Shown piece after piece: positions 13,379 to 63,902 of a DNA stretch of 64,000 bases; position 1 is the first letter of the stretch, and each line of letters begins with the position of its first letter. This DNA comes from Geodermatophilus nigrescens (GTDB lineage: Bacteria > Actinomycetota > Actinomycetes > Mycobacteriales > Geodermatophilaceae): NCBI RefSeq assembly GCF_900129495.1, contig NZ_FQVX01000002.1, positions 62,001 through 126,000 of the forward strand. The letters are read 5' to 3'. The translations under genes were made by a program, and so were the position numbers. The notes beneath the pieces are model-generated. The model was given only the letters and a program-made list of their open reading frames with translations, did no database searches and was not told where the DNA came from.

Positions 13379-13379
13379 C

Positions 13380-33142: not shown

Positions 33143-33146
33143 CGAC

Positions 33147-33188: not shown

Positions 33189-33197
33189 CCGGCCTGC

Positions 33198-33210: not shown

Positions 33211-33338
33211 CCCCGGGTGCGGTCTTCCGCCGACGGAGAGACGTCATCTGTGGCGTGCGGCACACCGGCGACCGGCCATAGGTTCGCCGCACGGCGGCCG
33301 GCGAACGCCCGGCGCCCACCACTCGCGGAGGAGGTCCG

Positions 33339-48219: not shown

Positions 48220-49446
<1,227 letters not shown>

Positions 49447-49460: not shown

Positions 49461-50468
49461 GTGACCACACCGGCACACCAGATCAAGCGGGGCGTCAGCC
49501 TCTACTCGTTCCAGGAGGAGTACTTCCTCCGCACCCTGTCCCTCGAGGACTGCATCCGGGTCGCCGGCGAGATCGGCGCCACGGGCATCGAGCTCATCCC
49601 CGAGCAGATGATCCCCGGCTTCCCCACGGTGACCGACGAGTTCGTGCAGCAGTGGTTCGCCTGGATGGAGCGGTACGGGACCCGGCCGGTCGCCACCGAC
49701 CTGTTCCTCGACACCAAGCTCCACCCCGACCGGTGGCTGACCCAGGAGGAGCAGGTCGCCTCCGTCTGCCGCGACGTCGACATCGCCGTCCGGCTCGGCG
49801 CCGGCATCGTCCGGGCGATCATCAACACCCCGCCGGAGGTCATGGAGGAGGCGGCGCCCTACGCCGAGGAGAAGGGCGTCCGCCTGCTCCTCGAGGTCCA
49901 CGCGCCCTTCCACTACGAGCACCCGTGGATCCTCGAGCACCTCGAGGTCATGTACCGCACGGGGTCGCCGGCACTGGGCCTCATGCCCGACATGGGCACC
50001 TACGTCGAGCGCTTCCCCCGGGTGGTCAGCGAGCGCGCCCTGCGCGACGGCGCCCGGCCGGAGCTGGTCGACCTGGTCGTGCAGACCTACGACGACCACG
50101 GCGACACCCACGCGCTCATGGACATCGTCAACTACCGCGGCGGCGGCCCGGTGGACTTCGGCCTGGCCCGCCAGGCGACCCACTACATCTGGTCCGAGCC
50201 CAAGGCGATGCTCGAGCACATGCCCCTCATCGGGCACATCCAGGCGAAGTTCTACGAGATGACCGACGAGGGCGTCGAGTACTCGATCCCCTACGACCGG
50301 ATCGTGCCCGTGCTCCTCGAGGGCGGCTTCGACGGCCACCTGTCCAGCGAGTACGAGGGCAACCGCCACATCCAGGACGTGCACCCCGTGGACAGCGTCG
50401 AGCAGGTCCGCCGCCAGCACGCCATGTTCGCCCGCCTGCTCGGCGAGACCCCCGGAGAGGACGCCTGA
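49461..50468 (+). CDS. Sugar phosphate isomerase/epimerase-like, C-glycoside deglycosidase alpha-subunit type (pair 1)
   Basis: 335-residue TIM-barrel protein of the AP_endonuc_2 fold. Candidate metal ligands are Glu in LLEVHAPF (near 144), Asp in MPDMGTY, Gln in GHIQAKFY (where others have His) and Glu in SSEYEGN. The opening RGVSLYSFQEEYF and size match the alpha subunit (CarB/DgpB) of C-glycoside deglycosidases, which cleave the C-C or C-O bond of 3-keto-glycosides. A DUF6379 beta-subunit gene overlaps its stop by one base, as in known carBC/dgpBC pairs. GTG start with GAGGG upstream. Confidence 0.8.
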   Translation: MTTPAHQIKRGVSLYSFQEEYFLRTLSLEDCIRVAGEIGATGIELIPEQMIPGFPTVTDEFVQQWFAWMERYGTRPVATDLFLDTKLHPDRWLTQEEQVASVCRDVDIAVRLGAGIVRAIINTPPEVMEEAAPYAEEKGVRLLLEVHAPFHYEHPWILEHLEVMYRTGSPALGLMPDMGTYVERFPRVVSERALRDGARPELVDLVVQTYDDHGDTHALMDIVNYRGGGPVDFGLARQATHYIWSEPKAMLEHMPLIGHIQAKFYEMTDEGVEYSIPYDRIVPVLLEGGFDGHLSSEYEGNRHIQDVHPVDSVEQVRRQHAMFARLLGETPGEDA

Positions 50469-50854
50469 TGTTCGACAGGTACATCGTCTGCGAGGAGGGC
50501 TTCCGCGCCCTCGACGACGGCCGCACCGGCGGCGTCGTGGAGGTCCGGATGCCGTACTACCGCGGCCTCGCGCTGTCGATGGTCGAGGCCGTCGACCTCG
50601 TCGTCGACGGCCGGCCCGTGCCGCCCGCCCGCACCAGCTTCACCGTGCACGGCAACACCTACCGCTTCGACCAGCTGCCGCGGACCACCGACGACCGGTG
50701 GGAGATGGGGGAGCGGGCCCAGCTCGCCTTCGAGACCGACGAGCCGCTCGCCCCCGGCGAGCACGAGGTCGCCGTCGCCGTGCGGCTGCGCATCTCCTAC
50801 ATGCCCGTCCCCAGCGGGGGGCGCGACAGCAAGCGCCTCACGCTGGCCGCCTGA
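50468..50854 (+). CDS. DUF6379-type C-glycoside deglycosidase beta subunit (pair 1)
   Basis: 128-residue beta-rich protein. The family pattern is visible: VEVRMPYYRGLALSMVEAVDLVVDGRPVP, then FTVHGNTYRFDQLP, the W-E-rich centre (DDRWEMGERAQLAF) and a final LRISYMPVPS. In DgpC and CarC this small subunit packs on the TIM barrel and shapes the active site. ATG overlaps the stop of the alpha-subunit gene (TGATG), supporting a 1:1 complex. Of the three beta genes here, this one reads most like the founding members. Confidence 0.83.
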   Translation: MFDRYIVCEEGFRALDDGRTGGVVEVRMPYYRGLALSMVEAVDLVVDGRPVPPARTSFTVHGNTYRFDQLPRTTDDRWEMGERAQLAFETDEPLAPGEHEVAVAVRLRISYMPVPSGGRDSKRLTLAA

Positions 50855-50865
50855 GAGGACCGGAC

Positions 50866-51276
50866 ATGGGACCCCTCGACGACCAGGTGGTGCGCGCCGA
50901 CTCGCTCACCGCCGGCCCCGACGGCCTGGAGATCGCCGTCTGGTCGCACTGGTACCGCGCCCTGCCGCTGCCGTCGCTGGCCCGCGTCGACCTCACCGTC
51001 GACGGGCGCCGCATCGACCCGGCCGAGCTGTCGGTCACCGTCAACGGCACCCGCCGCCCGCTGTCCGAGGTGGCCGGGGCCGGGGACGAGTACTGGTTCA
51101 CCACCGACCCGCTGGTCCTGCACACGCCGGTGGAGACCGCCCCCGGCCGGGAGCACCGCGTCCAGCTGCTGCTGGGCCTGTCGATCCCCTACATCCTCAC
51201 CGGCCCGGACCGGGTGCCCCTCGTGGCGCCCAGCGCCACCGACAAGACCCTCACCGCGGCGGGAGCACGCACGTGA
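50866..51276 (+). CDS. DUF6379-type beta subunit (pair 2)
   Basis: 136-residue paralogue of the preceding gene: LEIAVWSHWYRALPLPSLARVDLTVDGRRID, then LSVTVNGTRRPLSEV, DEYWFTTDPLVLH and LGLSIPYILTGPDRVPL. The Pro-Tyr-Tyr-Arg motif of pair 1 is His-Trp-Tyr-Arg here. It starts 11 bases after beta 1 with GAGAGGA upstream, and its stop overlaps the GTG of the next isomerase gene, so it is expected to pair with that protein. Confidence 0.78.
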   Translation: MGPLDDQVVRADSLTAGPDGLEIAVWSHWYRALPLPSLARVDLTVDGRRIDPAELSVTVNGTRRPLSEVAGAGDEYWFTTDPLVLHTPVETAPGREHRVQLLLGLSIPYILTGPDRVPLVAPSATDKTLTAAGART

Positions 51277-52304
51277 CCGACACCGCGCCGGGGCTGCCCC
51301 GCCTCGGCACCACCCTGTTCAGCCTCACGCTGGAGCAGCGCCGCGCCGGCGGGGACCTCGCGGGCCTCGTCCGCGAGGTGGCCGCACGCGACCTCGGGCC
51401 CGGCCTGGAGATGGTCGCCTTCCAGAGCCTGCGCGGCTGGCCCCGGCTGTCCCCGGAGCAGGAGCGGGAGGTCCGCGGCGTCCTCGACTCCTCGGGGCTC
51501 ACCCCGTCGTGCCTGGCGATCAACAACGACCTCGGCCTCTACCCGGGCCGGCTGCTCTCCGACGACGAGTCCTACGAGTACGTCGCCGTCCAGCTGCGCG
51601 GGGCGGCCGCGCTCGGCTTCCCCGTCGCCCGCGTGGGGGTGGAGACCGGCCCGGCGATCCTCGAGCGGCTGCTGCCGCTCGCCGAGCAGCTCGGCGTGAA
51701 GGTCGGCGTCGAGATCCACGCCCCGCTCACCATCGAGGCCGCGCCGGTGGCCGCGCTCAAGGAGCTCTTCACGCGGCTGGACACCCCCTGGCTGGGGTTC
51801 GTCCCCGACATGAGCGCGAGCATGCGGGCGGTCCCGGACGCCGTCGACGACGCCCACCGCGTCGCCGGCATCGCACCGGAGCTCACCGCGCTCACCAAGC
51901 AGCTGTGGGCCGAGCCCGGCCCCACGATGGCGAAGTTCCCGGAGCTGGAGCGGCGGGCGGCCGAGGCCGGCGCCACCCCGCCCCAGGTCGGCAACCTGAA
52001 GATGCTGTTCACCATGCACGGGCGGATGGCGCCCGAGCGGTGGGCCGACTTCTTCCCGCACGTCGTGCACGTGCACGGCAAGTTCTACGGGATCGTCGAG
52101 GGGCCCGACGGGCTCACCGACCCCTCGATCGACTGGCCGGCCGTCGCCCGCGTCCTGCGCGAGCAGGGGTACGACGGCGTCGTCTCCAGCGAGTACGAGG
52201 CGCACGCCTACAGCGACCGGTACAGCGCCTTCGACCAGATCCGCGCCCAGCACGACATGCTCAAGCGGCTGCTCGAGGCCGAGCCCGCGGTGGCCGCGCG
52301 ATGA
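51273..52304 (+). CDS. Sugar isomerase-like, deglycosidase alpha-subunit type (pair 2)
   Basis: 343-residue TIM-barrel protein similar to the genes at 49461 and, more strongly, 62054. Metal-ligand candidates are Glu in VGVEIHAPL, Asp in VPDMSAS, His in VHVHGKFYG and Glu in SSEYEAHAYSD. It is translationally coupled to beta subunit 2 upstream (GTGA) and to the first flavin oxidase downstream (ATGA). The ordering beta-alpha-oxidase suggests the oxidised product passes to this pair. The substrate is unknown. Confidence 0.8.
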   Translation: MTDTAPGLPRLGTTLFSLTLEQRRAGGDLAGLVREVAARDLGPGLEMVAFQSLRGWPRLSPEQEREVRGVLDSSGLTPSCLAINNDLGLYPGRLLSDDESYEYVAVQLRGAAALGFPVARVGVETGPAILERLLPLAEQLGVKVGVEIHAPLTIEAAPVAALKELFTRLDTPWLGFVPDMSASMRAVPDAVDDAHRVAGIAPELTALTKQLWAEPGPTMAKFPELERRAAEAGATPPQVGNLKMLFTMHGRMAPERWADFFPHVVHVHGKFYGIVEGPDGLTDPSIDWPAVARVLREQGYDGVVSSEYEAHAYSDRYSAFDQIRAQHDMLKRLLEAEPAVAAR

Positions 52305-53923
52305 GCACGTCCCCCGGTCCCGACGTCGCCGTCCCCGGTGTGGCCGACGTCGTCGACGTCGTCGTGGTCGGCTCCGGCCCGGTCGGCACCGCCGTCGCGC
52401 GGGAGCTGGCCGACGGCGGCAGCGGCGTGCGGGTCCTCGTGCTCGAGGCGGGGCAGCCGCTGGGCGAGCCCGCCGGCGGCCACGTGAAGAACATCGCCGA
52501 CGCGGCGGCCCGCGACGCCGTCCTCGCGGCGCTGGCCACCGGCCCCGGCCCGCTGCCCGGCGGCACGCCCGCCCGGCCGGGCACGACCCTGGTCGGCGCC
52601 CCGGACATGCCCAACGCCGCGGTGTCCACCAACGTCGGCGGGATGGGCGCGCACTGGACCGCGGCCTGCCCGCGCCCGGCCGACGACGAGGTGCCCGGCT
52701 GCGTCGACCCCGCCGTGCTCGACGAGGCGCTCACCCGCGCCGAGCAGCTGCTCGCGGTCACCACGCACGCCTTCGACCGGGCGCCGCTGACCGGCGCGGT
52801 GCAGCAGGTGCTCGGCGAGCTGTTCGACCGGCCGCAGCGCCGGCCGGCCGGGCCGATGCCCGTGGCGGTGACGGTCGGCGAGGACGGCTCCCTGCACTGG
52901 ACCGGCCCGGCGATCGTCGCCGGCGACCTGTGGGACCGCCCCGACGTCGAGTTGCGCACCGGCACGCTGGCCCGGCGCCTCCTGCGCGACGGCGACCGGG
53001 TGACCGGCGTCGAGGCCGTCGACCTGTCCTCCGGCCGGCGGTACGCGATCGGTGCCCGCGCCGTGGTGGTCGCCGCCGACGCGTTCCGGACGCCGCAGCT
53101 GCTGTGGGCCTCCGGCATCCGCCCCGGCGCGCTCGGCCGGTACCTCACCGAGCACCCGCAGGTCATGGCCGCCTCGCTGCTCGACGAGCGGCACGTCCCC
53201 GCGGACGCCCCGGTCGACGCCGACCTCCCGGTCACGGCCGCCGCCGCCCCCGGGGGAGGGGCGATCGTCCCCGTCTCCGGTGTCTCCTGGGTGCCCTACG
53301 CCGCGGACCGCCCCTTCCACGGCCAGGTCATGCAGATGGACGCCTCCCCGGTCCCCCTCGACCCCGGGGTGGCCGTCCGCCCCGGGCAGGTCGTCGGGCT
53401 GGGCTGGTTCTGCCGCAAGGAGCTCTCCCCGGACAACCGCGTGTGGTTCGACGAGGACGCCGCCGACGAGCACGGGCTGCCGGCGATCCGCATCGCCTAC
53501 GCCCTCAGCGACGCCGACCGGGCCTCCGTCGCCGCGGCCGTCGAGGAGGTGGGTGCCGCGGCACGCGCCCTCGGGCGGCCGCTCGGGGAGCCGTTCGTCA
53601 TGCCGCCCGGCAGCTCCCTGCACTACCTCGGCACCACCCGGATGGGCCGCGCCGACGACGGCACCAGCGTCTGCGACCCGGCCGGGCGGGTCTGGGGCAC
53701 CGAGAACCTCTACGTCGGCGGCAACAACGTCATCCCGACCGCGACGGCCTGCAACCCCACCCTCACCGCCGTCGCGCTCGGCGTGCTCACCGCCCGGGCC
53801 GTGGCCGCGCAACTGGCCGCGCAACTGGCCGCGCAGCCGGCCATCCAGCCGGCCACCCCGCCGGCCACCCCGGCGGCCGCCCAGCCGGCCCCGTCCCCCG
53901 TCGCCGAGGAGGCGCACGCATGA
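52301..53923 (+). CDS. GMC / pyranose 2-oxidase-like flavoprotein 1 (CarA-like sugar 3-oxidase candidate)
   Basis: 540-residue FAD enzyme. The dinucleotide motif VVGSGPVGTAVA starts near residue 22. VGGMGAHWTAACPRP has the histidine that carries covalent FAD in pyranose 2-oxidase (near 117). The catalytic His is in SSLHYLGTTRMG (near 439) and the Asn in ATACNPTLTAVAL (near 484). C-glycoside 3-oxidases such as CarA belong to this branch and oxidise the sugar C3 hydroxyl with O2. An Ala/Gln/Pro-rich tail of about 35 residues encoded by a 12-bp repeat is unusual. Confidence 0.85.
   Translation: MSTSPGPDVAVPGVADVVDVVVVGSGPVGTAVARELADGGSGVRVLVLEAGQPLGEPAGGHVKNIADAAARDAVLAALATGPGPLPGGTPARPGTTLVGAPDMPNAAVSTNVGGMGAHWTAACPRPADDEVPGCVDPAVLDEALTRAEQLLAVTTHAFDRAPLTGAVQQVLGELFDRPQRRPAGPMPVAVTVGEDGSLHWTGPAIVAGDLWDRPDVELRTGTLARRLLRDGDRVTGVEAVDLSSGRRYAIGARAVVVAADAFRTPQLLWASGIRPGALGRYLTEHPQVMAASLLDERHVPADAPVDADLPVTAAAAPGGGAIVPVSGVSWVPYAADRPFHGQVMQMDASPVPLDPGVAVRPGQVVGLGWFCRKELSPDNRVWFDEDAADEHGLPAIRIAYALSDADRASVAAAVEEVGAAARALGRPLGEPFVMPPGSSLHYLGTTRMGRADDGTSVCDPAGRVWGTENLYVGGNNVIPTATACNPTLTAVALGVLTARAVAAQLAAQLAAQPAIQPATPPATPAAAQPAPSPVAEEAHA
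53801..53896 (+). repeat. 12-bp tandem repeat in the 3' end of flavoprotein 1
   Basis: Eight diverged in-frame units of the type CTGGCCGCGCAA, CCGGCCATCCAG and CCGGCCACCCCG encode a low-complexity Ala-Gln-Pro tail. It lies after the last conserved motif, so its length may vary without loss of activity. Confidence 0.8.
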
Positions 53924-55446
53924 CCGCCCGGATCCTGATCGTCGGCAGCGGGCCGACCGGGGCCACCCACGCCCGGGTGCTGCTCGAGCGGCTGACCGAC
54001 GTCTCGGTGCTCATGGTGGAGGCCGGGCCGCTGGTCACCCGGCCGGCCGGCATGAACGTCAAGAACGTCCCCGACGCCGAGGGGCAGGCCGCGGCGCGCC
54101 TGGCCTCGCAGGGGCGGTCCAGCGAGAGCGGGGTGTCCGGGATCCCCGGCGGCGTCGTCGTCGAGGGGACCGTCACCGCCCGGCAGGGCACGCACCTCAT
54201 CGGCACGGCCGCCGACGGCTCCCCGGGGATGCCCGCCGCCGCCGGCGCCACGTGCGTCGGGGGACAGGGCGTGCACTGGACGTGCGCCACGCCCCGGCCC
54301 GTGGGCAGCGAGCGCATCCCGTTCCTCGACGCCGGCGAGTGGGACGCGCTGGTCGCCGAGGCCGAGGAGCTGCTGCACGTCCACCGGCCGAGCTTCGAGG
54401 GGTCCCCGCAGGCCGCGGCCATCCTCGAGACCGTCCGCGCCGAGTTCGCGCCCGACGGCATCACGGTCCGGCCCCTGCCCGTGGCCGCCGACCCCCGGCC
54501 GGACGGCTCGCTGCGCTGGAGCGGCACCGACGTCGTCCTCGACGGCGTCCCCGACGACGAGCGCTTCACCCTGCGCACGGAGACCCTCTGCGTGCGGCTG
54601 GTGCGCGAGGGCGACCGGGTGGTCGGCGCGGTGCTGCGCGACCTGCGCACCGGCGCCGAGGAGGAGGTCCGCGCCGACGCCGTCGTCGTGGCCGCCGACG
54701 CCCTGCGCACGCCCCAGTTGCTGTGGGCCTCGGGCATCCGGCCCGACGCGCTCGGCCGGTACCTCACGGAGCACCCGCTGCTGTTCGCCGTGGTGGCGGT
54801 GCGGCCGGACCTGCTGCCCGAGCGGGAGGACCCCGGGGCGCCGGTCGACCCCATCCGGGCGATCGTCTCGGTCGGCTTCGACGAGGAGCGGCACCCCTAC
54901 CACGCGCAGCTCATGTGGAACCCGGTGTCCCCGGCACCGCTGCCGGAGGGCAGCCGCTTCCGCGACAACCCGGCCGGCTACGTCGGCATGGGCTGGGGGA
55001 TCCGGAAGTGGCCGCGCCCCGAGGACCGGCTCACGTTCGAGGACGACCGGCCCGACGAGCACGGGCTCCCCGGCATCCGCATCGCCTACGAGCTCACCGA
55101 GCGCGAGGAGGCGGAGTTCGCCAGGGCCCGCGTCCACCAGGCCCGGGCCGCCGCTGCTCTCGGCGAGTTCCTCGACGGCATGCCCCGGGTGATGCCCGCC
55201 GGCTCGTCCCTGCACTACATGGGCACGGTCCGCATGGGTCCGGCCGACGACGGGACGAGCGTCTGCGACCCGGACTCGCGCGTGTGGGGCGTTCCCGGCC
55301 TCGTGCTCGCCGGCAACGGGCTCATCCCCACCGCCAACTCGTGCAACCCGACGCTCACCAGCGTGGCCCTGGCGATCCGGGCCGCCCGCGCGCTCGCCGC
55401 CGACCTCGCCGCCCTGCCCGCCGTGGCCGGCGCAGCGGCCGAGTGA
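53920..55446 (+). CDS. GMC / pyranose 2-oxidase-like flavoprotein 2
   Basis: 508-residue relative of the previous gene with the same motifs: ILIVGSGPTGATHARV, CVGGQGVHWTCATPRP (flavin-linking histidine near 118), SSLHYMGTVRMGPADDGTSVCD (catalytic His near 429) and NSCNPTLTSVALAI (Asn near 473). VGGxxxHWTCATP is the classic pyranose oxidase string, closer here than in copy 1. ATG overlaps the stop of copy 1 (ATGA). Two adjacent oxidases imply different substrates or a heteromer. Confidence 0.86.
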   Translation: MTARILIVGSGPTGATHARVLLERLTDVSVLMVEAGPLVTRPAGMNVKNVPDAEGQAAARLASQGRSSESGVSGIPGGVVVEGTVTARQGTHLIGTAADGSPGMPAAAGATCVGGQGVHWTCATPRPVGSERIPFLDAGEWDALVAEAEELLHVHRPSFEGSPQAAAILETVRAEFAPDGITVRPLPVAADPRPDGSLRWSGTDVVLDGVPDDERFTLRTETLCVRLVREGDRVVGAVLRDLRTGAEEEVRADAVVVAADALRTPQLLWASGIRPDALGRYLTEHPLLFAVVAVRPDLLPEREDPGAPVDPIRAIVSVGFDEERHPYHAQLMWNPVSPAPLPEGSRFRDNPAGYVGMGWGIRKWPRPEDRLTFEDDRPDEHGLPGIRIAYELTEREEAEFARARVHQARAAAALGEFLDGMPRVMPAGSSLHYMGTVRMGPADDGTSVCDPDSRVWGVPGLVLAGNGLIPTANSCNPTLTSVALAIRAARALAADLAALPAVAGAAAE

Positions 55447-55481
55447 CGACCCGACCCACCCCACCCCCGACAGGAGCCCCC

Positions 55482-56264
55482 ATGACGACCACGGAGATCT
55501 CGATCGAGGCGCTCGCCCGCCGCGTCGACGAGCTGCAGCAACAGCTCGAGACGACGCGGCTCGAGGCCACCCGCGCTGCCGACCGCGGCGCGGTCGACAA
55601 CGTCTTCAACCGCTACATGCACTACCACAACGCCTACGAGGACGAGCGGATCATCGCCGAGCTCTGGGCCGCGCCGGGCACCCCCGGGATGTGGTCGCGC
55701 TACAACAACGTCGGCCGCTACACGACCTACGAGTCGGTGACCGCCTACCACCGCGGCCGTCCGCGTCCGGTCGGCAAGCTGCTCTTCCACTACGCGACGA
55801 CGCCGGTCATCGAGGTCGGCGCCGACGGTCGGACGGCCAAGGGGATCTGGATCATGGCCGGCCTCGAGTCCGGGCTCATGGACCCCGAGGTCGCGAGGAA
55901 CGTCCCCCCGTGGGTGCTGTCGGGCGGCGACGTCGACGGCAAGCCGGTGTGGGCGCACTGGGTGTGGTGCAAGTACGGCGTCGACTTCGTCAAGCAGGAC
56001 GGCGAGTGGCGCATCTGGCACTTCCGCTGCTATGAGGTCGCCCGCGCGCCGTTCAACCGGGACTGGATCTCCTTCGCGAAGGACAACCAGGAGAGCCACG
56101 ACTCGCAGCTCGCCTGGTTCGGTGACGACGGGGTGCCGGTGTTCCTGCCGCCGGTCGACGAGCCGGTGGAGACCGACTACCACCCCTACGCCAACGACCG
56201 GGCGCAGACCCTCGAGCCCCTCCCGCCGGTGCCCTACACCGACTTCGAGGACACGTTCAAGTAG
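55482..56264 (+). CDS. SnoaL-like (NTF2-fold) domain protein
   Basis: 260 residues. A short N-terminal helix (ALARRVDELQQQLETTRLE, probable coiled coil) precedes an NTF2-like cone (about 35-190) with YMHYHNAYEDERIIAELWA and a WRIWHFRCYEV end. The C-terminal 60 residues are acidic and Pro-rich. Members include small isomerases, hydrolases and dehydratases; proteins like this are often annotated nuclear transport factor 2 family. ATG with CAGGAG upstream. Its place after two glycoside oxidases suggests processing of an aglycone or keto-sugar, unproven. Confidence 0.78.
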   Translation: MTTTEISIEALARRVDELQQQLETTRLEATRAADRGAVDNVFNRYMHYHNAYEDERIIAELWAAPGTPGMWSRYNNVGRYTTYESVTAYHRGRPRPVGKLLFHYATTPVIEVGADGRTAKGIWIMAGLESGLMDPEVARNVPPWVLSGGDVDGKPVWAHWVWCKYGVDFVKQDGEWRIWHFRCYEVARAPFNRDWISFAKDNQESHDSQLAWFGDDGVPVFLPPVDEPVETDYHPYANDRAQTLEPLPPVPYTDFEDTFK

Positions 56265-57688
56265 TGGACACCACGGTTCCCGCGGCGGGGCGGGCCGCCG
56301 CCCCGCCGCGGCGGCCGGGCGCACTGCTCGCGATCGCCTGCGCCGCGCAGTTCATCTGCGTCCTGGACACCTCGATCGTCAACGTGGCCCTGCCCCCGAT
56401 GCAGGACAGCCTCGGGCTCTCGGCCACCGGCCTGCAGTGGGTGGTGAGCAGCTACACGCTCACGTTCGCCGGCTTCCTCCTGCTCGGCGGGCGGATCGGC
56501 GACCTGTGGGGGCGCAGGCGCGCGTTCCTCGGGGGCCTGGCGCTGTTCGCCCTCGCGAGCCTGGCCGGCGGCCTGGCCCAGGAGGGCTGGCAACTGGTCG
56601 CGGCGCGCTTCGTGCAGGGCGTCGGCGGCGCGGTCCTCGTGCCCACGACGCTCAGCCTCATCACGACCGGGTTCACCGAACCCGGGGCGCGCGCCCGCGC
56701 GCTCGGCCTGCTCACCGCGGCCGCTGCGTCGGGCAGCGCCCTGGGAGGGGTGGTCGGCGGACTGCTCACCGGCCTGCTCAGCTGGCGGTGGGTGTTCTTC
56801 GTCAACGTGCCGCTGGGCGCGGTGCTCGTCGTCGCGGCCCTGTGGGCGCTCACCGGCCGGCAGCCCGGCTCCGTCCGGGGCCGGCTGGACCTGCCCGGCT
56901 CGGCCACGGTGACCGCCGGGACGGCGCTGCTCGTGGCGGCGGTGATCCTCGGCGAGGAGCGGGGCTGGTCATCGGGTCCGGCCCTGGCCTGCCTCGTGGG
57001 CGCCGGAGCGTCGTTCACGGCGTTCGTGGCCGCCGAGCGGCGTGCCGAGCACCCCGTCGTCCCGCTGTCGGTGCTGCGGGTGCGGCCGGTGACCGTCGCC
57101 AACTCCCTGTCGGCGCTGACCGGCGGCGTGCTCCCCGCGATGATGTTCTTCCTCGTCCTGTACCTGCAGCAGGTGCTCGGCCTGGACCCGCTCACGGCCG
57201 GGCTCGCCCTGGCGCCGGCGGCGGTCGGGATCGCGCTCGGCGCCCAGGTCGCCTCGCGCACCATCGAGCGCCTCGGGCCGGCCCGGCTCTTCCAGCTCGG
57301 CACCCTGGTGGCCGCCGCGTCGCTGTTCTGGCTGTCCCGGCTGGAGGTCGGCGGGTCCTACTGGACCGACGTCCTGGCACCCAGCGTCCTGGCCATGGCC
57401 GGCTTCGGGGCGGCCGGGCTCCCGCTGACGGTCACCGCCACCACCGGACTCGGGCCCGAGCGCGCGGGGCTCGCCTCCGGGCTGCTGTCCATGTCGCGCC
57501 AGGTGGGCAGCGCCGTCGGCCTGGCCGCGCTCGTCGCCGTCGCCAGCACGGGGACGGCATCGGCCGGTGGGGGGGCCGAGGCGCTCACCCAGGGGTTCGG
57601 GACCGGGCTGCTCGCCGGTGCCGGGCTCCAGGTCGCTGCCTGCCTGGGCGGCTCCGCACTGCCCCGCCGGACCCACCACCCGGCCTGA
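56264..57688 (+). CDS. MFS transporter, EmrB/QacA (DHA2, 14-TM) type
   Basis: 474-residue transporter with about 14 hydrophobic segments and DHA2 motifs: VLDTSIVNVALP in the first segment, GGRIGDLWGRRRAFL in loop 2-3 and FQGVGGA-like FVQGVGGAVLVP later. The GTG overlaps the previous stop (TAGTG). DHA2 members are usually proton-driven exporters, so release of an aglycone or toxic phenol is plausible; uptake is not excluded. Confidence 0.88.
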   Translation: MDTTVPAAGRAAAPPRRPGALLAIACAAQFICVLDTSIVNVALPPMQDSLGLSATGLQWVVSSYTLTFAGFLLLGGRIGDLWGRRRAFLGGLALFALASLAGGLAQEGWQLVAARFVQGVGGAVLVPTTLSLITTGFTEPGARARALGLLTAAAASGSALGGVVGGLLTGLLSWRWVFFVNVPLGAVLVVAALWALTGRQPGSVRGRLDLPGSATVTAGTALLVAAVILGEERGWSSGPALACLVGAGASFTAFVAAERRAEHPVVPLSVLRVRPVTVANSLSALTGGVLPAMMFFLVLYLQQVLGLDPLTAGLALAPAAVGIALGAQVASRTIERLGPARLFQLGTLVAAASLFWLSRLEVGGSYWTDVLAPSVLAMAGFGAAGLPLTVTATTGLGPERAGLASGLLSMSRQVGSAVGLAALVAVASTGTASAGGGAEALTQGFGTGLLAGAGLQVAACLGGSALPRRTHHPA

Positions 57689-57719
57689 TCCCCGCCCGGG
57701 CGAGTGGGGCCGCACGGTG

Positions 57720-57739
57720 CGCCGGTGGCCTCACCGGCG
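57720..57739 (+). terminator. Hairpin between the MFS gene and the isomerase array
   Basis: CGCCGGTG and CACCGGCG arms with a 4-base loop lie in the 104-base gap. No U-run. It may attenuate expression of the downstream array or be a processing site. Confidence 0.4.
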
Positions 57740-57792
57740 GCGGGATCCCCCCACGACAACCACCAGACGACGTCGCAGGAAGCGAGGCCAGC

Positions 57793-58761
57793 ATGGCTTG
57801 GACCAAGTGGTCCTACATGGACCACTGGGTGACGGAGACGCCGCAGGGGCCGCAGCCCCCGTCGTTCAACCGCGCCTACATGGACCGGTACGTCAAGGAG
57901 CTGTCCGCCCTGGGCTTCACGGGCTTCGACACCTTCTTCTTCTACCTGCCCCTCTACGCCGGGATGTACGGCGGCGTGCCGGGCTTCGAGCGGTTCCTGC
58001 AGGACAACGGGTTCGAGAAGATCACCGGCATCTTCTCCGCGTACCCCTCCGCGACGAAGTACGCGGCACCGCACGTCCGGGAGACCCACGACCGGATCGT
58101 CGCCGACTGCACGAACACGCTGCGCATGTGCGAGGGGCTCACCGGCGTCGAGAACTTCATCGTCATGCCGACGTCGACGTACTGGCAGACCGAGCCGGTC
58201 ACCGACGACACGATCAAGGTCGTGGCCGACCTGTGGAACCGGGTCGGGGAGCTGACCCGCCGGCACGGCATGACGACGACCTGCCACTTCGAGTTCTGGG
58301 GCGCCATCCGCACGCGCGAGCAGGTCGACACGTTCCTGGCCCACACCGACCCGGAGCTCGTCCGCTTCTTCTGCGACACCGCGCAGCACACCATCGCCGG
58401 CGTCGACCCGGTCCAGCTCTTCCGCGACTACGCCGACCGCTGCACGGGGTTCCACTTCAAGGACACGAAGGACGTCGACGAGCACGAGGCCTACCGCACG
58501 CCGCCGGACCCGGAGCTCATGGCGCCCCAGGTGACGCGCTGGTTCTACGAGATGGGCGAGGGCGGCCTGGTCGACTTCCCGGCGCTGATGAAGGAGATCG
58601 TCGCCAGCGGCTACGACGGCTGGCTCACGGTCGAGCACGACAAGGCCGAGCTCGGCGGCGGCAGCTACGCCGAGGCCACCGCCGTCGCGAAGTGGTACAT
58701 CGACAACGTGCTCGCCGAGGCCGAGGCCGAGGCGCGCGCCGAGCTGGGGAGTGCGCGATGA
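57793..58761 (+). CDS. Sugar isomerase-like TIM-barrel protein A
   Basis: 322 residues. The N-terminus KWSYMDHW is shared with the protein at 59726 (A'). Metal ligand candidates: Glu in CHFEFWG, Asp in FCDTAQHTIAG, His in GFHFKDTKD and Glu in LTVEHDKAE. An acidic alanine-rich tail ends the protein. First of four consecutive genes arranged A-B-A'-B'. ATG with no strong ribosome site. An epimerase, isomerase or lyase acting on keto-sugars is likely; exact reaction unknown. Confidence 0.82.
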   Translation: MAWTKWSYMDHWVTETPQGPQPPSFNRAYMDRYVKELSALGFTGFDTFFFYLPLYAGMYGGVPGFERFLQDNGFEKITGIFSAYPSATKYAAPHVRETHDRIVADCTNTLRMCEGLTGVENFIVMPTSTYWQTEPVTDDTIKVVADLWNRVGELTRRHGMTTTCHFEFWGAIRTREQVDTFLAHTDPELVRFFCDTAQHTIAGVDPVQLFRDYADRCTGFHFKDTKDVDEHEAYRTPPDPELMAPQVTRWFYEMGEGGLVDFPALMKEIVASGYDGWLTVEHDKAELGGGSYAEATAVAKWYIDNVLAEAEAEARAELGSAR

Positions 58762-59729
58762 GGGACACCCTGCGCTGGGCCTACGCGCTCAACCAGTGGA
58801 ACGTCCGGCTCGACGTCTTCGTCCGGCACGAGGACCAGCAGCGGGCGCTCAAGACCGTGTCCGCCTGCGGGTTCGACACGATCGAGCTCGCGTCCGGTAC
58901 CGGCCGCTGGGACAACATCAGCCGGCCCGAGGTCATCCTGACCAACCACGGCAGCCACGCCGGCTTCCTCGACTTCCTGCGCCGGGCGCGGGTGCAGGGC
59001 GTCTCCAGCATGTTCTGGGACCCGCAGGCGCCCGCGGAGGAGGAGGAGGGCTACGCCTTCCGGTCGACGGCGGACCCGGACGACGCCGACGCGATCGTCG
59101 AGTGGTCGCGGCCGTTCGTCGACTTCGTGGCCGGCGTGGGCGCCGAGCAGCTCGTCGTCCGCCCGGTCGGGTCGGCCTGGATGACGCCGCCGCTGGACGC
59201 CGACGGGATCAAGCGCGTCGGCGACGTGTGGAACCGGGTCGGCGAACTCACCTCGGCCGCCGGGATCGGTCTGGCCGTGCACTACGACTGCCTGGGCGCC
59301 GTGCACACCGAGGCGGAGCTGACCGGCCTGCTCGACGCCACCGACCCGGCGCGCGTCGGCTTCGCGCTCGACACGGCCGAGCTGACGGTCGGCGGCATCG
59401 ACCCGGTGGCCTTCTACCGGGCGCACGCCGACCGGGTCGCGCACGTGCACCTCAAGGACACCCGTCACGCGGACACCGGCGAGGAGTACCGGATGCCCGG
59501 GGCGGAGTCGACCATGCTGAAGGGCGGCGCCGGCCGGCGGATCGAGCGCTGGTTCTTCGAGCTCGGCACCGAGGGCGGGCTGGTCGACGTCCCCGGGTTC
59601 GTCGCGGCGCTGCGCGAGCACGACTACCCGGGATGGGTCGTCGTCGAGAGCGACCACGGCGGCAACCCGGCCGAGCTCGCGATGCTCAACAGCTGGTACC
59701 TGCAGCACGAGCTCGGGATCGCGAAGTGA
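58758..59729 (+). CDS. Sugar isomerase-like TIM-barrel protein B
   Basis: 323 residues with the N-terminus LRWAYALNQWNV that is repeated in the protein at 60673 (B'). The first metal-ligand position is Asp (AVHYDCLG) rather than Glu; the others are Asp in ALDTAELTVGG, His in AHVHLKDTRH and Glu in VVVESDHGG. ATG overlaps the stop of gene A. Coupled translation and alternating order suggest A and B form a mixed complex. Confidence 0.82.
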   Translation: MRDTLRWAYALNQWNVRLDVFVRHEDQQRALKTVSACGFDTIELASGTGRWDNISRPEVILTNHGSHAGFLDFLRRARVQGVSSMFWDPQAPAEEEEGYAFRSTADPDDADAIVEWSRPFVDFVAGVGAEQLVVRPVGSAWMTPPLDADGIKRVGDVWNRVGELTSAAGIGLAVHYDCLGAVHTEAELTGLLDATDPARVGFALDTAELTVGGIDPVAFYRAHADRVAHVHLKDTRHADTGEEYRMPGAESTMLKGGAGRRIERWFFELGTEGGLVDVPGFVAALREHDYPGWVVVESDHGGNPAELAMLNSWYLQHELGIAK

Positions 59730-60676
59730 CCGCCCCCGAGCGCGCCATCAAGTGGTCGTACATGGACCACTGGCGGAGCAACGGCCCCTCCGGGCCCGTC
59801 GACCAGTGGCACTCGCGGAAGACGATGTCGGCCTTCCTCAAGCAGGTGAAGGCCGTGGGCTTCGACGCGATCGACACGTTCGACTTCCGCATCTGGCAGA
59901 TGTACGGCGACTACGGCGGCCCGGCCAAGTACCAGGAGATGGTGCAGGACCACGGCCTGGAGCGGATCGTGAACACGTTCCACGCCGCCGACTACGACGT
60001 CCGGAACTACGCGCCGCACGTCCCGGAGACGCACGAGGCCGTCTTCGAGGACTTCCGCGTCACGATGGGCCGCTGGTCGGAGATCCGGCTCGACAACATC
60101 ATCGTGATGCCGGCGACGCTCTTCTACGACATGGAGCCGATCACCGAGGACAAGCTGAAGTACTCGGCGGAGTGCTGGAACAAGGTCGGTGAGATCACCG
60201 CCGGCTTCGGGGTGAAGCTCACCTGCCACCACGAGTTCTTCTGCGGCATCCAGAGCGAGCCCGACATCGAGACCTTCTACTCCTACACCGACCCGCGGTA
60301 CGTGAACCTGTTCGTCGACACCGCCCAGCACTGCATCGCCGGGCTCGACCCGGTGGCGCTCTACGACCGGCACGCGCACCGGGTCAGCGGGTTCCACTTC
60401 AAGGACACCCGCCACGTGGCCACCGGCGACGACCACCGGCACCGGCCCGACTCCGAGATCATGGCGCCGACCACCGGCAAGTGGTTCTACGAGATGGGCA
60501 CCGACCAGGGCCTCGTCGACTTCGAGGCGATGATGCGGGCGGTCCGCGACAACGGCTACCGCGGCTGGATCTCCGTCGAGCACGACAAGGCCAACAAGGA
60601 GGGCGGCGACTACTCCGAGAGCACCGCGATCTCCCGCTGGTACGCGAAGAACGTCCTCGAGGAGATCTACCGGTGA
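59726..60676 (+). CDS. Sugar isomerase-like TIM-barrel protein A'
   Basis: 316-residue paralogue of protein A: IKWSYMDHW, CHHEFFCG, FVDTAQHCIAG, GFHFKDTRH and ISVEHDKANKEGGDYSESTAISRWYAKNV line up with A nearly motif for motif. All four metal-ligand positions (Glu, Asp, His, Glu) are kept. GTG start overlapping the stop of gene B. Confidence 0.84.
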   Translation: MTAPERAIKWSYMDHWRSNGPSGPVDQWHSRKTMSAFLKQVKAVGFDAIDTFDFRIWQMYGDYGGPAKYQEMVQDHGLERIVNTFHAADYDVRNYAPHVPETHEAVFEDFRVTMGRWSEIRLDNIIVMPATLFYDMEPITEDKLKYSAECWNKVGEITAGFGVKLTCHHEFFCGIQSEPDIETFYSYTDPRYVNLFVDTAQHCIAGLDPVALYDRHAHRVSGFHFKDTRHVATGDDHRHRPDSEIMAPTTGKWFYEMGTDQGLVDFEAMMRAVRDNGYRGWISVEHDKANKEGGDYSESTAISRWYAKNVLEEIYR

Positions 60677-61650
60677 GCGGCATCCGTTGGGCCTACGCGA
60701 TCAACCAGTGGAAGCCCCAGTTCGACGACTTCGTCCGCCGCGAGCAGCACGAGCGCGCGCTGAAGACCATCTCGATCGCCGGCTTCGAGGGCGTCGAGCT
60801 GACCTACGGCACCGGCCGGTGGGAGCCGCTGGGCAACCCGCAGCAGCTGGCCGCCAACTTCGGCTCCGTCGCGGGCTTCGGGGAGTTCCTGCGCAGCTGC
60901 GCCGTCGACGCGGTCAGCAGCTGGTACTGGGACCCGGCGGAGCGCTCGATGGAGGACCTCACCGGGCCGCTGTCCCCGCTGGCGGAGGCCGACGCCCCCG
61001 CCATCGCGCAGCGGGCCGGCCTGCTCGCCGGGGCGCTCGCCGAGCTCGGCGGGTCCGTGCTGCTCGTGCGCCCCGTCCCGGGCGCCGGGGACGTCGAGCC
61101 GCTCGACGACGACGCCCTCGCCCGGGTCGCCGCCTGCTGGGACGCGGCCGGCCGCACGACGGCGGAGCACGGGATCCGGCTGGCCCTGCACGTGGACTTC
61201 CTGTCCGCGCTGCGCCGCGACCACGTGCCCGCCCTGCTCGACCGCACCGACCCCGCCCTGGTGGGCCTCGCGCTCGACACCGGCGAGCTGACCGCCGGGG
61301 GCATCGACCCCCTGGGGGTGATCGAGCGCAGCGGCGACCGGATCTGGCACGTGCAGTTCAAGGACGCCCTCGCCGTCGACGACGCCGGGGAGTACCTCCA
61401 GCCGCACGCGCACTGGACCGTGCGGGTCCGCGGCGGCGCCCGGGAGGTCCCGCGCTGGTTCGCCGAGCCCGGCGCCGACGGCGGTCTCGTCGACTTCCCG
61501 GCCGTCACCCGGGCCCTGCTCGGCGCGGGGTACTCCGGCTGGATCGTCGTCGAGAGCGACCAGAGCCCGCACCCGGCGGCCAGCGCCCTGCTCGCCGGCT
61601 ACCACGTGCAGCGCGAGCTGCGTCCCCTCGTCGAGGAGGAGCCCGCCTGA
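60673..61650 (+). CDS. Sugar isomerase-like TIM-barrel protein B'
   Basis: 325-residue paralogue of protein B: IRWAYAINQWKPQFDDFVRREQHERALKTISIAGFEGVEL. The ligand positions read Asp (ALHVDFLS), Asp (ALDTGELTAGG), Gln (WHVQFKDAL, His in B) and Glu (VVESDQS). Gln at the third position also occurs in hydroxypyruvate isomerase, so activity may be kept but changed. GTG overlaps the stop of A'. Its own stop overlaps the beta-subunit gene that follows. Confidence 0.82.
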   Translation: MSGIRWAYAINQWKPQFDDFVRREQHERALKTISIAGFEGVELTYGTGRWEPLGNPQQLAANFGSVAGFGEFLRSCAVDAVSSWYWDPAERSMEDLTGPLSPLAEADAPAIAQRAGLLAGALAELGGSVLLVRPVPGAGDVEPLDDDALARVAACWDAAGRTTAEHGIRLALHVDFLSALRRDHVPALLDRTDPALVGLALDTGELTAGGIDPLGVIERSGDRIWHVQFKDALAVDDAGEYLQPHAHWTVRVRGGAREVPRWFAEPGADGGLVDFPAVTRALLGAGYSGWIVVESDQSPHPAASALLAGYHVQRELRPLVEEEPA

Positions 61651-62057
61651 TGGCCACCGGCGACACCGTCCTCACCGACGACAGCCTCATCGCCCGCCCC
61701 GGGGGACTGGGCATCGCGCTGACGGTGCCCTGGTACCGCAGCCTCTGGCTGTCCAGCGTCACCGACATCACCGTCTCCGTGGCGGGTCGCGAGATCGCGA
61801 GGGACGACCTGCGGGTCGAGCTGGGGGAGCGGACCCACCGGGTCGACGAGCTGCCCGACCAGTGGGACGTCCTCTGGTTCGTCCAGGACCGGCTCGTCGT
61901 GGTCGTGCCGCTCGACGAGCCGCCCACCGAGGGCCGGGCGGTCGACGTCGAGGTGACCGTGGACCTGCGGCTGCCCTACATGCAGATCGCCCCGCGGGTC
62001 TACGTGACCAACCACGCGAGCGACCGCCGGTCGCTGACCGTGGGGAGCACGCGATGA
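61650..62057 (+). CDS. DUF6379-type beta subunit (pair 3)
   Basis: 135 residues: GGLGIALTVPWYRSLWLSSVTDITVSVAGREIARDDLRVELGERTHRVDELPDQWDVLWFVQDRLVVVVPLD and a final LRLPYMQIAPR. Pro-Trp-Tyr-Arg replaces Pro-Tyr-Tyr-Arg of pair 1. It overlaps the stop of B' by one base and the ATG of the next alpha-type gene by four bases. Likely partner is the protein at 62054, although B' is an alternative. Confidence 0.78.
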   Translation: MATGDTVLTDDSLIARPGGLGIALTVPWYRSLWLSSVTDITVSVAGREIARDDLRVELGERTHRVDELPDQWDVLWFVQDRLVVVVPLDEPPTEGRAVDVEVTVDLRLPYMQIAPRVYVTNHASDRRSLTVGSTR

Positions 62058-63124
62058 CCGCCACCGCTCCGACCCGCGTCGCCGAGCCGGCCGTCCCGGG
62101 CAGCGGGATCAGGCTGGGCCTGACGCTGTACTCCCTCACCAGCGAGTGGGCGGCCGGCCGCTACGACCTCGCGGGCCTGCTCGACGTCGTCCACTCCGCC
62201 GGCATCGGCCCCGGCGTCGAGATCGTCGCCTCGCAGACGATCCGCACCTACCCGGACGTCACCGACGAGTTCGTCCGCGACTGGCGCGACGCCGTCGACC
62301 GGCACGGCTTCGTCCCGAGCTCGTTCGGCTGCAACCTCGACATGGGCCGCCGCCGCGACCGGGACATGACCGAGGACGAGGAGTACGAGTTCACCGTTCC
62401 GCAGTTCCGCAGCGCGCACGCGCTCGGCTTCCCGCTGGTGCGCATCCAGAGCGCCAAGCCGTCGCTGATCCGCCGGCTGCTGCCGGTGGCCGAGGAACTC
62501 GACCTGACCATGGGCTGGGAGCTGCACGCGCCGCTCGGCCCGAACTCGCCGAAGGTGCTGGAGATCCGCGAGACCTACGCCGAGATCGACTCGCCGCGGC
62601 TCGGTTTCGTCGCCGACTTCAGCGCGACGATGCGCGCGATGTCGCCCACGATCCTGCGCAAGCTCGCGAGGACGGGCCTCGGCGCCGACGAGCTGCGGAA
62701 GCTCCAGGAGATCTGGGCGACCGATGCCGACATCGACGCCCGGCACGGCGAGTTCGTCGAGTACCTGCACTCCCGCGGGATCGCCCCGGAGTCGCTCGGC
62801 TCGTTCGCGCGGCTGGCGTTCACCATGCACGGCCACGTCGACCCGGCCGAGTGGGCCGACATCATGCCGCTCGTCAAGCACGTGCACGCCAAGTTCTACG
62901 ACATCGACGAGCACGGCGACGAGCCCGCCATCGACTACCCGGCGATCGTCCGCGAGTTCGTCCGCGCCGGCTGGTCGGGCTTCTTCTCCAGCGAGTGGGA
63001 GGGCCACGCCTTCGCCGACCTCGACGAGGCCGACCCCGTGGACCTCGTCCGCAAGCAGCACGACCTCATCCGCCGGTCCATCGCGACCGCCCTGGCCGCC
63101 CCCTCCGAGGACAAGGACGCCTGA
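62054..63124 (+). CDS. Sugar isomerase-like, deglycosidase alpha-subunit type (pair 3)
   Basis: 356-residue TIM-barrel protein, closest in the window to the gene at 51273 (shared GPGxEIV/MVASQ-like opening, LHAPLGP, AKFYDID and SSEWEGHAF). Metal-ligand candidates: Glu in WELHAPL, Asp in VADFSAT, His in KHVHAKF and Glu in SSEWEGH. The N-terminal 20 residues are Ala/Pro-rich. ATG overlaps the stop of beta subunit 3. Confidence 0.8.
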   Translation: MTATAPTRVAEPAVPGSGIRLGLTLYSLTSEWAAGRYDLAGLLDVVHSAGIGPGVEIVASQTIRTYPDVTDEFVRDWRDAVDRHGFVPSSFGCNLDMGRRRDRDMTEDEEYEFTVPQFRSAHALGFPLVRIQSAKPSLIRRLLPVAEELDLTMGWELHAPLGPNSPKVLEIRETYAEIDSPRLGFVADFSATMRAMSPTILRKLARTGLGADELRKLQEIWATDADIDARHGEFVEYLHSRGIAPESLGSFARLAFTMHGHVDPAEWADIMPLVKHVHAKFYDIDEHGDEPAIDYPAIVREFVRAGWSGFFSSEWEGHAFADLDEADPVDLVRKQHDLIRRSIATALAAPSEDKDA

Positions 63125-63125: not shown

Positions 63126-63902
63126 GTGTACCAGCTCTCCGCCAACATCGAACTGCTCTTCACCGAGGCCGGCGACGACGCCGGTGACCGGGTCCGCGCC
63201 GCGGCCGCTGCCGGCTTCGACGCCGTCGAGATGTGGTTCTCCACCGACAAGGACCTCGACTCGCTGGAGAAGGCGCTCGCCGACACCGGCGTGCAGCTCA
63301 CCTCCATGCTCGCCGGGCCCCGGATGACCTACACGTACCCGGGCACCGACCTCGCGCCGTTCCACCAGGGCCTCGACCTCGCCGTCGAGCACGCCCGCCG
63401 GCTCGGCTGCCCGCGCATCGTCCTCGCCTCCGGCATGGGCTTCCCGGGGATGAGCCGGCAGCGGAACCACCAGTTCCTGGTCGACATGTTCGGGGAGGCC
63501 CTCGAGCGGAACCGCGGTGCCGACGTCGACTTCATCCTGGAGCCGGTCAACTCGCGGGTGGACCACCCCGGTGCGCTCACCGACCGCACCGAGGACGCCG
63601 TGGACATCGCCCGGGCGATGGGCACCGACCGGTTCGGGATCCTCTACGACCTCTACCACTCGATCGTGCAGGGCGAGGACCCGGCGACCGAGCTGGCCGG
63701 CGCCGCGGGCCTCGTGAAGTACGTGCAGCTCGCCGACGCCCCCGGCCGGCACGAGCCCGGCAGCGGCGACGTCGACTGGCCGGCACAGCTGGCCGTGGTC
63801 CGCGCGTCCGGCTACGACGGCCCGATCGGCCTGGAGTACTTCCCGGCCGTCGAGTCGGCGGCGTCGGTCGGGTACATCCGGTCGGTCGCGGCGGACGCGT
63901 GA
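63126..63902 (+). CDS. Hydroxypyruvate isomerase-like (Hyi) TIM-barrel protein
   Basis: 258 residues, shorter than its neighbours and of the Hyi type: FILEPVNSRVDHPG with the first glutamate, ILYDLYHSIVQGED, YVQLADAPGRHEPGSGDVDW with Gln in the third ligand position as in E. coli Hyi, and LEYFPA with the last glutamate. It would interconvert hydroxypyruvate and tartronate semialdehyde or isomerise a related short keto-sugar. GTG two bases after the previous stop; its stop overlaps the next gene. Confidence 0.83.
   Translation: MYQLSANIELLFTEAGDDAGDRVRAAAAAGFDAVEMWFSTDKDLDSLEKALADTGVQLTSMLAGPRMTYTYPGTDLAPFHQGLDLAVEHARRLGCPRIVLASGMGFPGMSRQRNHQFLVDMFGEALERNRGADVDFILEPVNSRVDHPGALTDRTEDAVDIARAMGTDRFGILYDLYHSIVQGEDPATELAGAAGLVKYVQLADAPGRHEPGSGDVDWPAQLAVVRASGYDGPIGLEYFPAVESAASVGYIRSVAADA

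Follow-up and report, generated by a model that had tools for sequence, protein, structure and literature searches.

We analyzed a stretch of 64,000 nucleotides from Geodermatophilus nigrescens (contig NZ_FQVX01000002.1, positions 62,001 to 126,000; here called the window), a bacterium whose genome comprises 4.74 Mb in 11 contigs. The window very probably harbors a catabolic operon for plant C-glycosides, and probably for some O-glycosides, which would act by oxidation, elimination, hydration and reduction. This is directly supported by gene content, family membership, catalytic residues, private co-evolution of subunits, gene packing and synteny. An initial annotation made from the letters alone had proposed a locus for cleavage of C-glycosides or 3-keto-glycosides. 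The genes identified are of this kind: three encode the beta subunit of C-glycoside deglycosidases (CGD), each with an alpha partner, and two encode CGOx-type oxidases. A multi-substrate C-glycoside catabolic operon is our best reading, the enzymatic activities being predicted from sequence. The genes from the first deglycosidase subunit onward are as follows (residue positions of alpha subunits in AgCGD2 numbering).

49461-50468, + strand: CGD alpha1, lineage 1 (8qvc_A, E = 7e-110; Gln at 269)
50468-50854, + strand: CGD beta1, lineage 1 (PF19906, 106.6 bits; 8qvc_B, E = 1e-26)
50866-51276, + strand: CGD beta2, lineage 4 (PF19906, 35.6 bits)
51273-52304, + strand: CGD alpha2, lineage 4 (7dnm_A, the AgCGD2 alpha, E = 3e-55)
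52301-53923, + strand: OX1, C-glycoside 3-oxidase-like GMC flavoprotein (7qf8_A, E = 5e-128; clade IV-like motifs)
53920-55446, + strand: OX2, second GMC glycoside oxidase-like protein (7dve_A, E = 6e-121, best match; 7qf8_A, E = 4e-116)
55482-56264, + strand: SnoaL_4-like protein (PF13577, E = 1.3e-15)
56264-57688, + strand: MFS transporter (PF07690, E = 3e-51)
57793-58761, + strand: IolE-like TIM barrel type A, copy 1 (AP_endonuc_2)
58758-59729, + strand: IolE-like TIM barrel type B, copy 1 (AP_endonuc_2)
59726-60676, + strand: type A, copy 2 (AP_endonuc_2; 44% identity to copy 1)
60673-61650, + strand: type B, copy 2 (AP_endonuc_2; 43% identity to copy 1)
61650-62057, + strand: CGD beta3, lineage 5 (PF19906, 49.1 bits)
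62054-63124, + strand: CGD alpha3, lineage 5, AgCGD2-like (7dnm_A, E = 1e-131)
63126-63902, + strand: hydroxypyruvate-isomerase-like (HYI-like) TIM barrel (TIGR03234, 164 bits, below the cut-off of 353)

These 15 genes are part of a same-strand run which, according to a codon-model gene finder, extends from the ROK regulators at 40086 to 63902. Between 49461 and 63902, overlaps of 1 to 4 nt were found at 10 of the 14 junctions, and gaps of 1, 11, 35 and 104 nt (the longest) at the remaining four; the genes are presumably co-transcribed. The alpha1 and beta1 genes overlap by 1 nt, alpha being first, and both beta2/alpha2 and beta3/alpha3 overlap by 4 nt. The gene calls thereby reproduced the coordinates given earlier for the three small proteins and their TIM-barrel partners, the start/stop overlap within each pair and the near-complete coupling by overlaps.

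Membership of the small proteins in the family PF19906 (CGDB, C-glycoside deglycosidase beta subunit), whose solved members carry the name DUF6379, had been set beforehand as a check. All three exceeded the curated cut-off of 27.6 bits. When the entire genome (4.74 Mb) was searched in six frames at E ≤ 0.001, no CGDB gene beyond these three was found. Each of the three beta genes lies beside a gene for a xylose-isomerase-like alpha. The closest solved chains are 8qvc_A, the partner of a DUF6379 chain, for alpha1 and 7dnm_A, belonging to AgCGD2, for alpha2 and alpha3.

The relation between alpha and beta subunits was analyzed with 242 distinct pairs from 103 related DNA stretches and the window. 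From 257 pairs, 15 had been dropped because their alpha or beta was already assigned; the duplicate contigs L064-L069 and L063, a far-downstream stretch of the G. nigrescens genome itself, were left out. The 80 named loci had been fetched with alpha3 and are therefore biased to lineage 5. Alphas and betas were clustered separately by average linkage with hand-set, unscanned cut-offs of 42% for alpha and 33% for beta. Seven alpha and seven beta groups were obtained, one of them a single pair, and alpha and beta fell into matching groups in 242 of 242 pairs. The identity matrices of alphas and betas were correlated with a Mantel r of 0.957, the maximum over 500 permutations being 0.028. Furthermore, 129 of the 242 pairs have both genes within a single stop-free frame, namely 75 of the 80 lineage-2 pairs and 54 of the 92 lineage-5 pairs. 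We read these as putative natural fusions, as in the solved protein 8qrz. The one-to-one co-evolution and these one-frame arrangements argue strongly, if indirectly, that each beta is a genuine subunit of the alpha next to it and cannot be exchanged freely, which agrees with a reported subunit swap between deglycosidases that failed (PMC8563793). The window contains lineages 1 (alpha1beta1), 4 (alpha2beta2) and 5 (alpha3beta3). Three distinct private lineages fit a different substrate for each pair, and this part of the proposed multi-substrate locus was retained as a prediction; its second part, the rarity of three pairs, was not.

CGDB genes were detected in 17 of 112 Geodermatophilaceae genomes, with one to eight copies each, and the other 95 had none. 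Six CGDB-positive genus-mates carry 3, 3, 4, 4, 5 and 5 copies. The maximum, eight CGDB genes within about 44 kb, was observed in family genome G107 (L060-L062). Lineages 1, 2, 4, 5 and 6 occur together in four genomes (G046, G058, G020 and G065), spread over two contigs in G058 and G020. Among 74 named loci of at most 21 kb fetched with alpha3, 46 have at least three beta genes and 34 have three lineages. Hence, the statement that three pairs are unusual was wrong: family survey and synteny show four to five pairs in some relatives, and up to eight betas occur per genome. With lineages 2 and 6 missing, the window resembles a more compact form of the Geodermatophilaceae locus. The expanded form recurs in this family and in other soil Actinobacteria. 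A description of four- or five-pair loci was not found in the literature searched, which left out most subscription papers. In a phylum-wide survey 5 of 396 genomes were CGDB-positive, three of them above the cut-off; these are too few for association tests.

Catalytic residues were examined by alignment with AgCGD2, the metal ligands of which are E147, D179, H269, K271 and E305 (PMC8563793). E147, D179, K271 and E305 are kept in all three alphas and His269 in alpha2 and alpha3, so that these two have all five ligands; alpha1 has four and carries Gln at 269, as does 8qrz. A His at 149 is kept in all three and corresponds, as counted by hand on the alignment, to H143 of PuCGD, the catalytic base (PMC10628242). 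Across the pair set, position 269 is His in 146 of 146 alphas of lineages 3-6 and Gln in 15 of 15 of lineage 1, in 73 of 80 of lineage 2 (the other seven end before the site) and in the single lineage-7 pair. When open frames were sorted by the best-matching window alpha, Gln was found in 95 of 95 alpha1-type frames and His in 160 of 161 alpha3-type and 11 of 11 alpha2-type frames; 7 of 277 sequences failed the motif filters of this open-frame survey. The alphas of the pair set were required to match [HQ][AGMS]K[FYLW], so their His/Gln count is conditioned by this filter.

AgCGD2, which is C8-specific, carries Met as residue 249, where enzymes of the C6 type have Ala or Gly (PMC8563793). At positions 248-249, lineage 3 has Asn-Gly (36 of 39), lineage 5 Asn-Met (88 of 92) and lineage 4 Thr-Met (11 of 11); no match to this motif pattern was found in lineages 1, 2, 6 and 7. 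Both alpha2 and alpha3 of the window have Thr-Met. Since they share Met249 with AgCGD2, we predict a C8-type pocket for both.

The Gln of alpha1 raises the possibility that just one or two of the pairs are active deglycosidases and that alpha1beta1 has turned to hydration, epimerization or O-glycoside elimination. We consider this unlikely. The invariance of this Gln in alpha1-type frames would fit such a switch, and exchange of the equivalent His for Ala dramatically lowered the activity of PuCGD and MiCGD (PMC8563793). However, the same Gln is present in the solved fused alpha-beta protein 8qrz (for which no activity report was found in the literature searched), lineage 1 alphas keep their CGDB partner, and alpha1 keeps the catalytic His. 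Moreover, His is found in 8qvc, to which alpha1 is closest among solved proteins, and the Gln/His exchange thus occurs between close relatives. A further idea, that the Gln-type metal site marks a wholly new enzyme class, was weakened because 8qrz carries this Gln.

The two oxidases were compared with the glycoside 3-oxidase PsG3Ox, which was recognized by its motif and five residues as a 519-residue oxidase in Pseudarthrobacter siccitolerans stretch L122. OX1 has all five PsG3Ox residues (K55, R94, Q297, H440 and N484), and its flavin motif GAHW and its DASPVPL loop closely resemble the clade IV pattern of PMC10807413. In OX2, K, R, H and N are kept and Leu is found at 297 (four of five positions), together with GVHW, the motif given for clade III (PMC10807413), and a different substrate loop. 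Thus, of the glycoside-binding residues K55, R94 and Q297, which vary between clades, OX1 has three and OX2 two. Both oxidases have the catalytic pair His440/Asn484 and, in their flavin motif, the stretch HWT (PMC10807413), and both match 7qf8, in line with the initial annotation of two flavoproteins with pyranose oxidase active-site motifs. The pyranose oxidase equivalog TIGR02462 gave 182.7 and 199.3 bits and its cut-off of 544.9 was not reached; by this profile, OX1 and OX2 are predicted not to be classical pyranose oxidases. Because of this result, their reaction was assigned solely by residues and nearest structures. Among nine other aligned oxidases, those of the Thermocatellispora (54% identity) and Agromyces (50%) loci are closest to OX2; the Agromyces oxidase has the clade II loop SETTPFPM but GAHW.

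Of the O-glycoside phlorizin and the C-glycoside aspalathin, phlorizin is preferred by an oxidase of Actinobacteria that belongs to clade II (PMC11673046), and therefore OX2, which departs from the clade IV pattern, may bring in other substrates. It is nevertheless quite unlikely that the locus mainly degrades O-glycosides, e.g., dihydrochalcone or flavonoid O-glucosides, via 3-oxidation and beta-elimination with C-glycosides as minor substrates. The preference for phlorizin, the deviation of OX2 from the clade IV pattern and its nearness to the Thermocatellispora and Agromyces oxidases would suit such a role, as would the 3-keto-beta-glucopyranoside-1,2-lyases and the Agrobacterium tumefaciens hydratase AtHYD among the structural neighbors of the A and B proteins. 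On the other hand, complexes of CGDB with alpha are described for C-C cleavage (PMC8563793), OX1 has the clade IV motif set, and neither GVHW of OX2 nor GAHW of the Agromyces oxidase equals GAWH, which is given for clade II. In addition, A and B have IolE-like proteins as their nearest fold matches, and the lyases do not score above sugar epimerases.

Five further TIM barrels had been noted as isomerase paralogues and were considered as additional deglycosidase alphas. This candidate function was rejected because they have no beta partner and match other profiles, four being IolE-like and one HYI-like. The four form a module of types A and B that is present as two tandem copies (57793/58758 and 59726/60673), each A overlapping its B by 4 nt. 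The first copies alone were run against NCBIfam and PDB. With 80.6 (A) and 81.3 bits (B), the cut-off of 290 for the IolE profile TIGR04379 was not reached. Fold models of A1 and B1, built on just 16 and 14 sequences, had pLDDT values of 78.7 and 84.0 and are xylose-isomerase-like barrels nearest to IolE-type structures. The IolE-type protein 3cny matched A1 with Z 25.2 (root mean square deviation 2.9, 276 aligned residues) and B1 with Z 29.1 (2.8, 275 residues); three 9zm entries tie with 3cny. Next come 3-keto-glucoside lyases, AtHYD, sugar epimerases and xylose isomerases, with Z values lower by a few units. AtHYD (8ro4) ranks 20th for one model and sixth for the other, with 13 and 16% identity, and is thus not the nearest. 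The A1 sequence also matches 8tct, a 3-keto-beta-glucopyranoside-1,2-lyase, with E = 4e-5. AtOGE was not identified with certainty among the listed fold matches of A and B, an absence that excludes nothing. IolE dehydrates a keto-inositol, and this chemistry closely resembles eliminating from or hydrating a 3-keto sugar.

Of 108 family genomes, 13 contain type A (E ≤ 1e-40), and every one of these is CGDB-positive (Fisher p = 1e-13, kinship ignored). The 17 CGDB-positives were taken from the 112-genome survey, and all appear in a sample size-matched to the type A survey. Outside the family, A-B modules were located within about 8 kb of deglycosidase pairs in six loci chosen by alpha3 (L070, L071, L072, L106, L123 and L136). 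It is possible, though doubtful, that the A-B-A-B block (57793-61650) represents a second, beta-free 3-keto-glycoside system of obligate A-B partners, which with the Gln-type lineage 1 would form a combinatorial pathway. The proteins, e.g., as an A-B heteromer, would open or hydrate 3-keto-glycosides or 2-hydroxy-3-keto-glycals, and a single duplication of the module would have paired each deglycosidase lineage with its own downstream enzyme. Two observations speak against this: plain sugar epimerases and xylose isomerases match the A and B models at nearly equal Z, and no type A match at E 1e-40 was obtained in four of the 17 CGDB-positive family genomes (G026, G039, G065 and G083). Since G065 has five pairs, A-B is apparently not needed for a multi-pair locus. 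The literature searched contained no paper on type A or B among hydratases and no description of such a combinatorial C-glycoside pathway. The first candidate for the 2-hydroxy-3-keto-glucal hydratase is the HYI-like protein 63126, as its relatives directly precede the oxidase gene in many named loci.

Genes upstream of the deglycosidases complete the proposed C-glycoside pathway.

40086-41342 and 41406-42674, + strand: ROK-family regulators in tandem (Pfam ROK plus MarR-type HTH)
42891-44195, + strand: ABC sugar-binding protein (SBP_bac_8/SBP_bac_1; synteny in relatives)
44259-45212 and 45225-46058, + strand: permease-like genes (labeled by reading of the hydrophobic sequence; synteny in relatives)
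46216-47295, + strand: Gfo/Idh/MocA oxidoreductase (PF01408, 95 bits)
47292-48191, + strand: AhpC/TSA-redoxin domain with DF-family-like C-terminal domain (PF00578, E = 1.4e-17)
48220-49446, + strand: ABC ATPase, UgpC type, of the uptake system (NF008653, 446 bits, above the cut-off of 432; PF00005)

The four-step logic was taken from PMC10628242, where a scheme of oxidation, elimination, hydration and reduction is set out for other organisms. Glycosides would be taken up via the ABC transporter and/or the MFS protein, and OX1 and OX2 would oxidize the sugar at C3 with O2, generating H2O2. The AhpC/TSA-type protein possibly removes this H2O2; its gene adjoins the ATPase gene in the loci of relatives too, and it reached 53.7 bits with NF049942, below the cut-off of 70. 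Next, the 3-keto-glycoside would be split by the three private alpha-beta enzymes through metal-assisted acid/base catalysis, and each pair presumably takes a different aglycone or linkage. The resulting 2-hydroxy-3-keto-glucal would be hydrated by at least one TIM-barrel protein (63126 and/or A-B). The Gfo/Idh/MocA protein, whose best NCBIfam match is levoglucosan dehydrogenase (NF052479, 166 bits, below the cut-off of 650), would act as 3-keto-glucose reductase, and the aglycone would enter aromatic catabolism. The tandem ROK proteins are likely local regulators, and one or both of their genes head the loci of several relatives. Oxidase, alpha-beta pairs, ABC transporter, Gfo and HYI-like genes co-occur, in varying sets, in named actinobacterial loci. 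Match E-values, conserved synteny and alpha-beta co-evolution show that the locus is not a chance assembly. The SnoaL_4-like protein may have a role in the pathway as well. Its gene recurs in C-glycoside loci, in some between an alpha and a beta gene (L078 and L112); no paper joining C-glycoside with SnoaL was found in the literature searched. The gene run goes on past the window end with a ThuA-like gene (PF06283, start 63899), followed by an FAD monooxygenase-like gene.

Several points weigh against a C-glycoside catabolic operon. Both oxidases score far below the curated pyranose-oxidase cut-off. The Gln of alpha1 sits where a change from His to Ala is so damaging in PuCGD and MiCGD (PMC8563793). 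The HYI-like, Gfo and A-B assignments derive from fold and context, their profile scores staying below curated cut-offs. Finally, substrates are not readable from the genes; the division of substrates among the pairs is presumptive. That the genes instead make or tailor a glycosylated natural product is highly improbable. SnoaL-like genes occur in antibiotic clusters too and the hydroxyparomomycin oxidase 7dve is the closest solved relative of OX2, but Pfam revealed no glycosyltransferase or scaffold-forming family in 21 of the 23 window genes that begin with the one at 40086 (all except the two permease-like ones), and the ABC sugar uptake, the ROK regulators and the genes for a sugar oxidoreductase and for isomerase-like proteins are in keeping with catabolism.

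The locus was compared with known systems. The nearest solved relative of alpha1 (E = 7e-110) and beta1 is the DUF6379/TIM-barrel complex 8qvc/8qvd/8umc, which has His where alpha1 has Gln at 269. Its source may, as a guess, be a 2024 paper in J Mol Biol on Deinococcus aerius that PMC11673046 cites. The fused CGD-like protein 8qrz/8un2 (PDB name 'Sugar phosphate isomerase') shares the Gln of alpha1, and its alpha domain is close to lineage 2 (E = 2e-160 to the lineage-2 alpha of Arthrobacter globiformis). In 8qrz the beta-like part precedes alpha in one chain, whereas the window pairs are split genes and lineage 2 is absent.

AgCGD2 from A. globiformis NBRC 12137 (PDB 7dnm/7dnn; PMC8563793) is of the same lineage 5 as alpha3beta3. 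Its alpha is 56% identical to alpha3, with all metal ligands and the catalytic His kept; alpha3 is nearer (65-66%) to the second lineage-5 alpha of the A. globiformis locus (L127) and has Thr where AgCGD2 has Asn248. A gene in L127 fits the AgCGD2 alpha, since a 102-residue stretch of 7dnm_A is 100% identical to it and the published ligand positions fall on the right residues. Two A. globiformis enzymes, AgCGD1 and AgCGD2, are published (PMC8563793); AgCGD2 alone was placed in L127. This locus has four pairs within 2.3-15.1 kb (about 13 kb), compared to three in the window.

In P. siccitolerans, PsG3Ox (7qf8/7qfd/7qva; PMC10646112) is encoded beside deglycosidase pairs, as here; the available part of that paper describes two pairs, whereas stretch L122 shows three complete ones and a fourth alpha at its end. 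CarABC and PurABC of Microbacterium and Paenarthrobacter (PMC8563793; PMC12724307) likewise combine an FAD oxidase with an alpha-beta deglycosidase in soil Actinobacteria, but one pair is described in each in the parts seen, and the window has three lineages and two oxidases. The GlycDH-OGE-HYD operon of A. tumefaciens (PMC10628242) follows the same four-step logic; there, elimination is performed by a single TIM barrel without beta, and a dehydrogenase takes the place of the oxidases.

The C-C bonds between sugar and aromatic aglycone resist ordinary glycosidases, and soil bacteria have to cope with a diversity of plant C-glycosides. Our results suggest that some soil Actinobacteria stack several private alpha-beta lineages, up to five per locus, and that Geodermatophilaceae add two oxidase types to them. 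The putative G. nigrescens operon, made up of enzymes of known kinds, represents a rich though not unique form of a known pathway. What gives it value is the clear separation of its lineages, the lineage with Gln and the A-B module rather than the presence of three pairs. If the lineages differ in substrate, they would provide an orthogonal enzyme set for making aglycones or, in reverse, C-glycosides (a reverse reaction by a 3-keto-C-glycoside lyase was reported; PMC13273386), as well as a clean test of what determines preference for C6, C8 or O-linkage. Concrete targets are offered by the metal site with Gln in place of His and by the A-B module that is linked to CGD.

Aromatic catabolism genes were additionally found at 12647-18041 and 25421-34211 of the window; a GntR-type regulator, an RraA-like gene and an amidohydrolase are also among them.

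14070: LigB-type extradiol dioxygenase
14995: DesA-like O-demethylase (560 bits, below the cut-off of 800)
16641: LigM O-demethylase (896 bits, above the cut-off of 580)
26781: 4-oxalomesaconate tautomerase (495, above the cut-off of 440)
27903: catechol 2,3-dioxygenase-like (294, below the cut-off of 320)
31685: tannase/feruloyl-esterase family
33339: formyltransferase-plus-ACT gene

This gene set fits the breakdown of methoxylated gallate or protocatechuate. The tautomerase exceeded its cut-off in 10 of 17 CGDB-positive and 19 of 91 CGDB-negative family genomes (Fisher p = 0.0025, kinship ignored). In 4 of 10 genomes it lay on the same contig as CGDB, within about 100 kb; because co-location was found in just these four, the aromatic genes are loosely linked to the C-glycoside locus. 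One coherent bergenin or O-methylgallate pathway including the aromatic genes at 14-33 kb was considered and not retained, the link being loose at most. In family genome G054, the LigM O-demethylase model matched 13 times, and four of these matches exceeded the curated cut-off.

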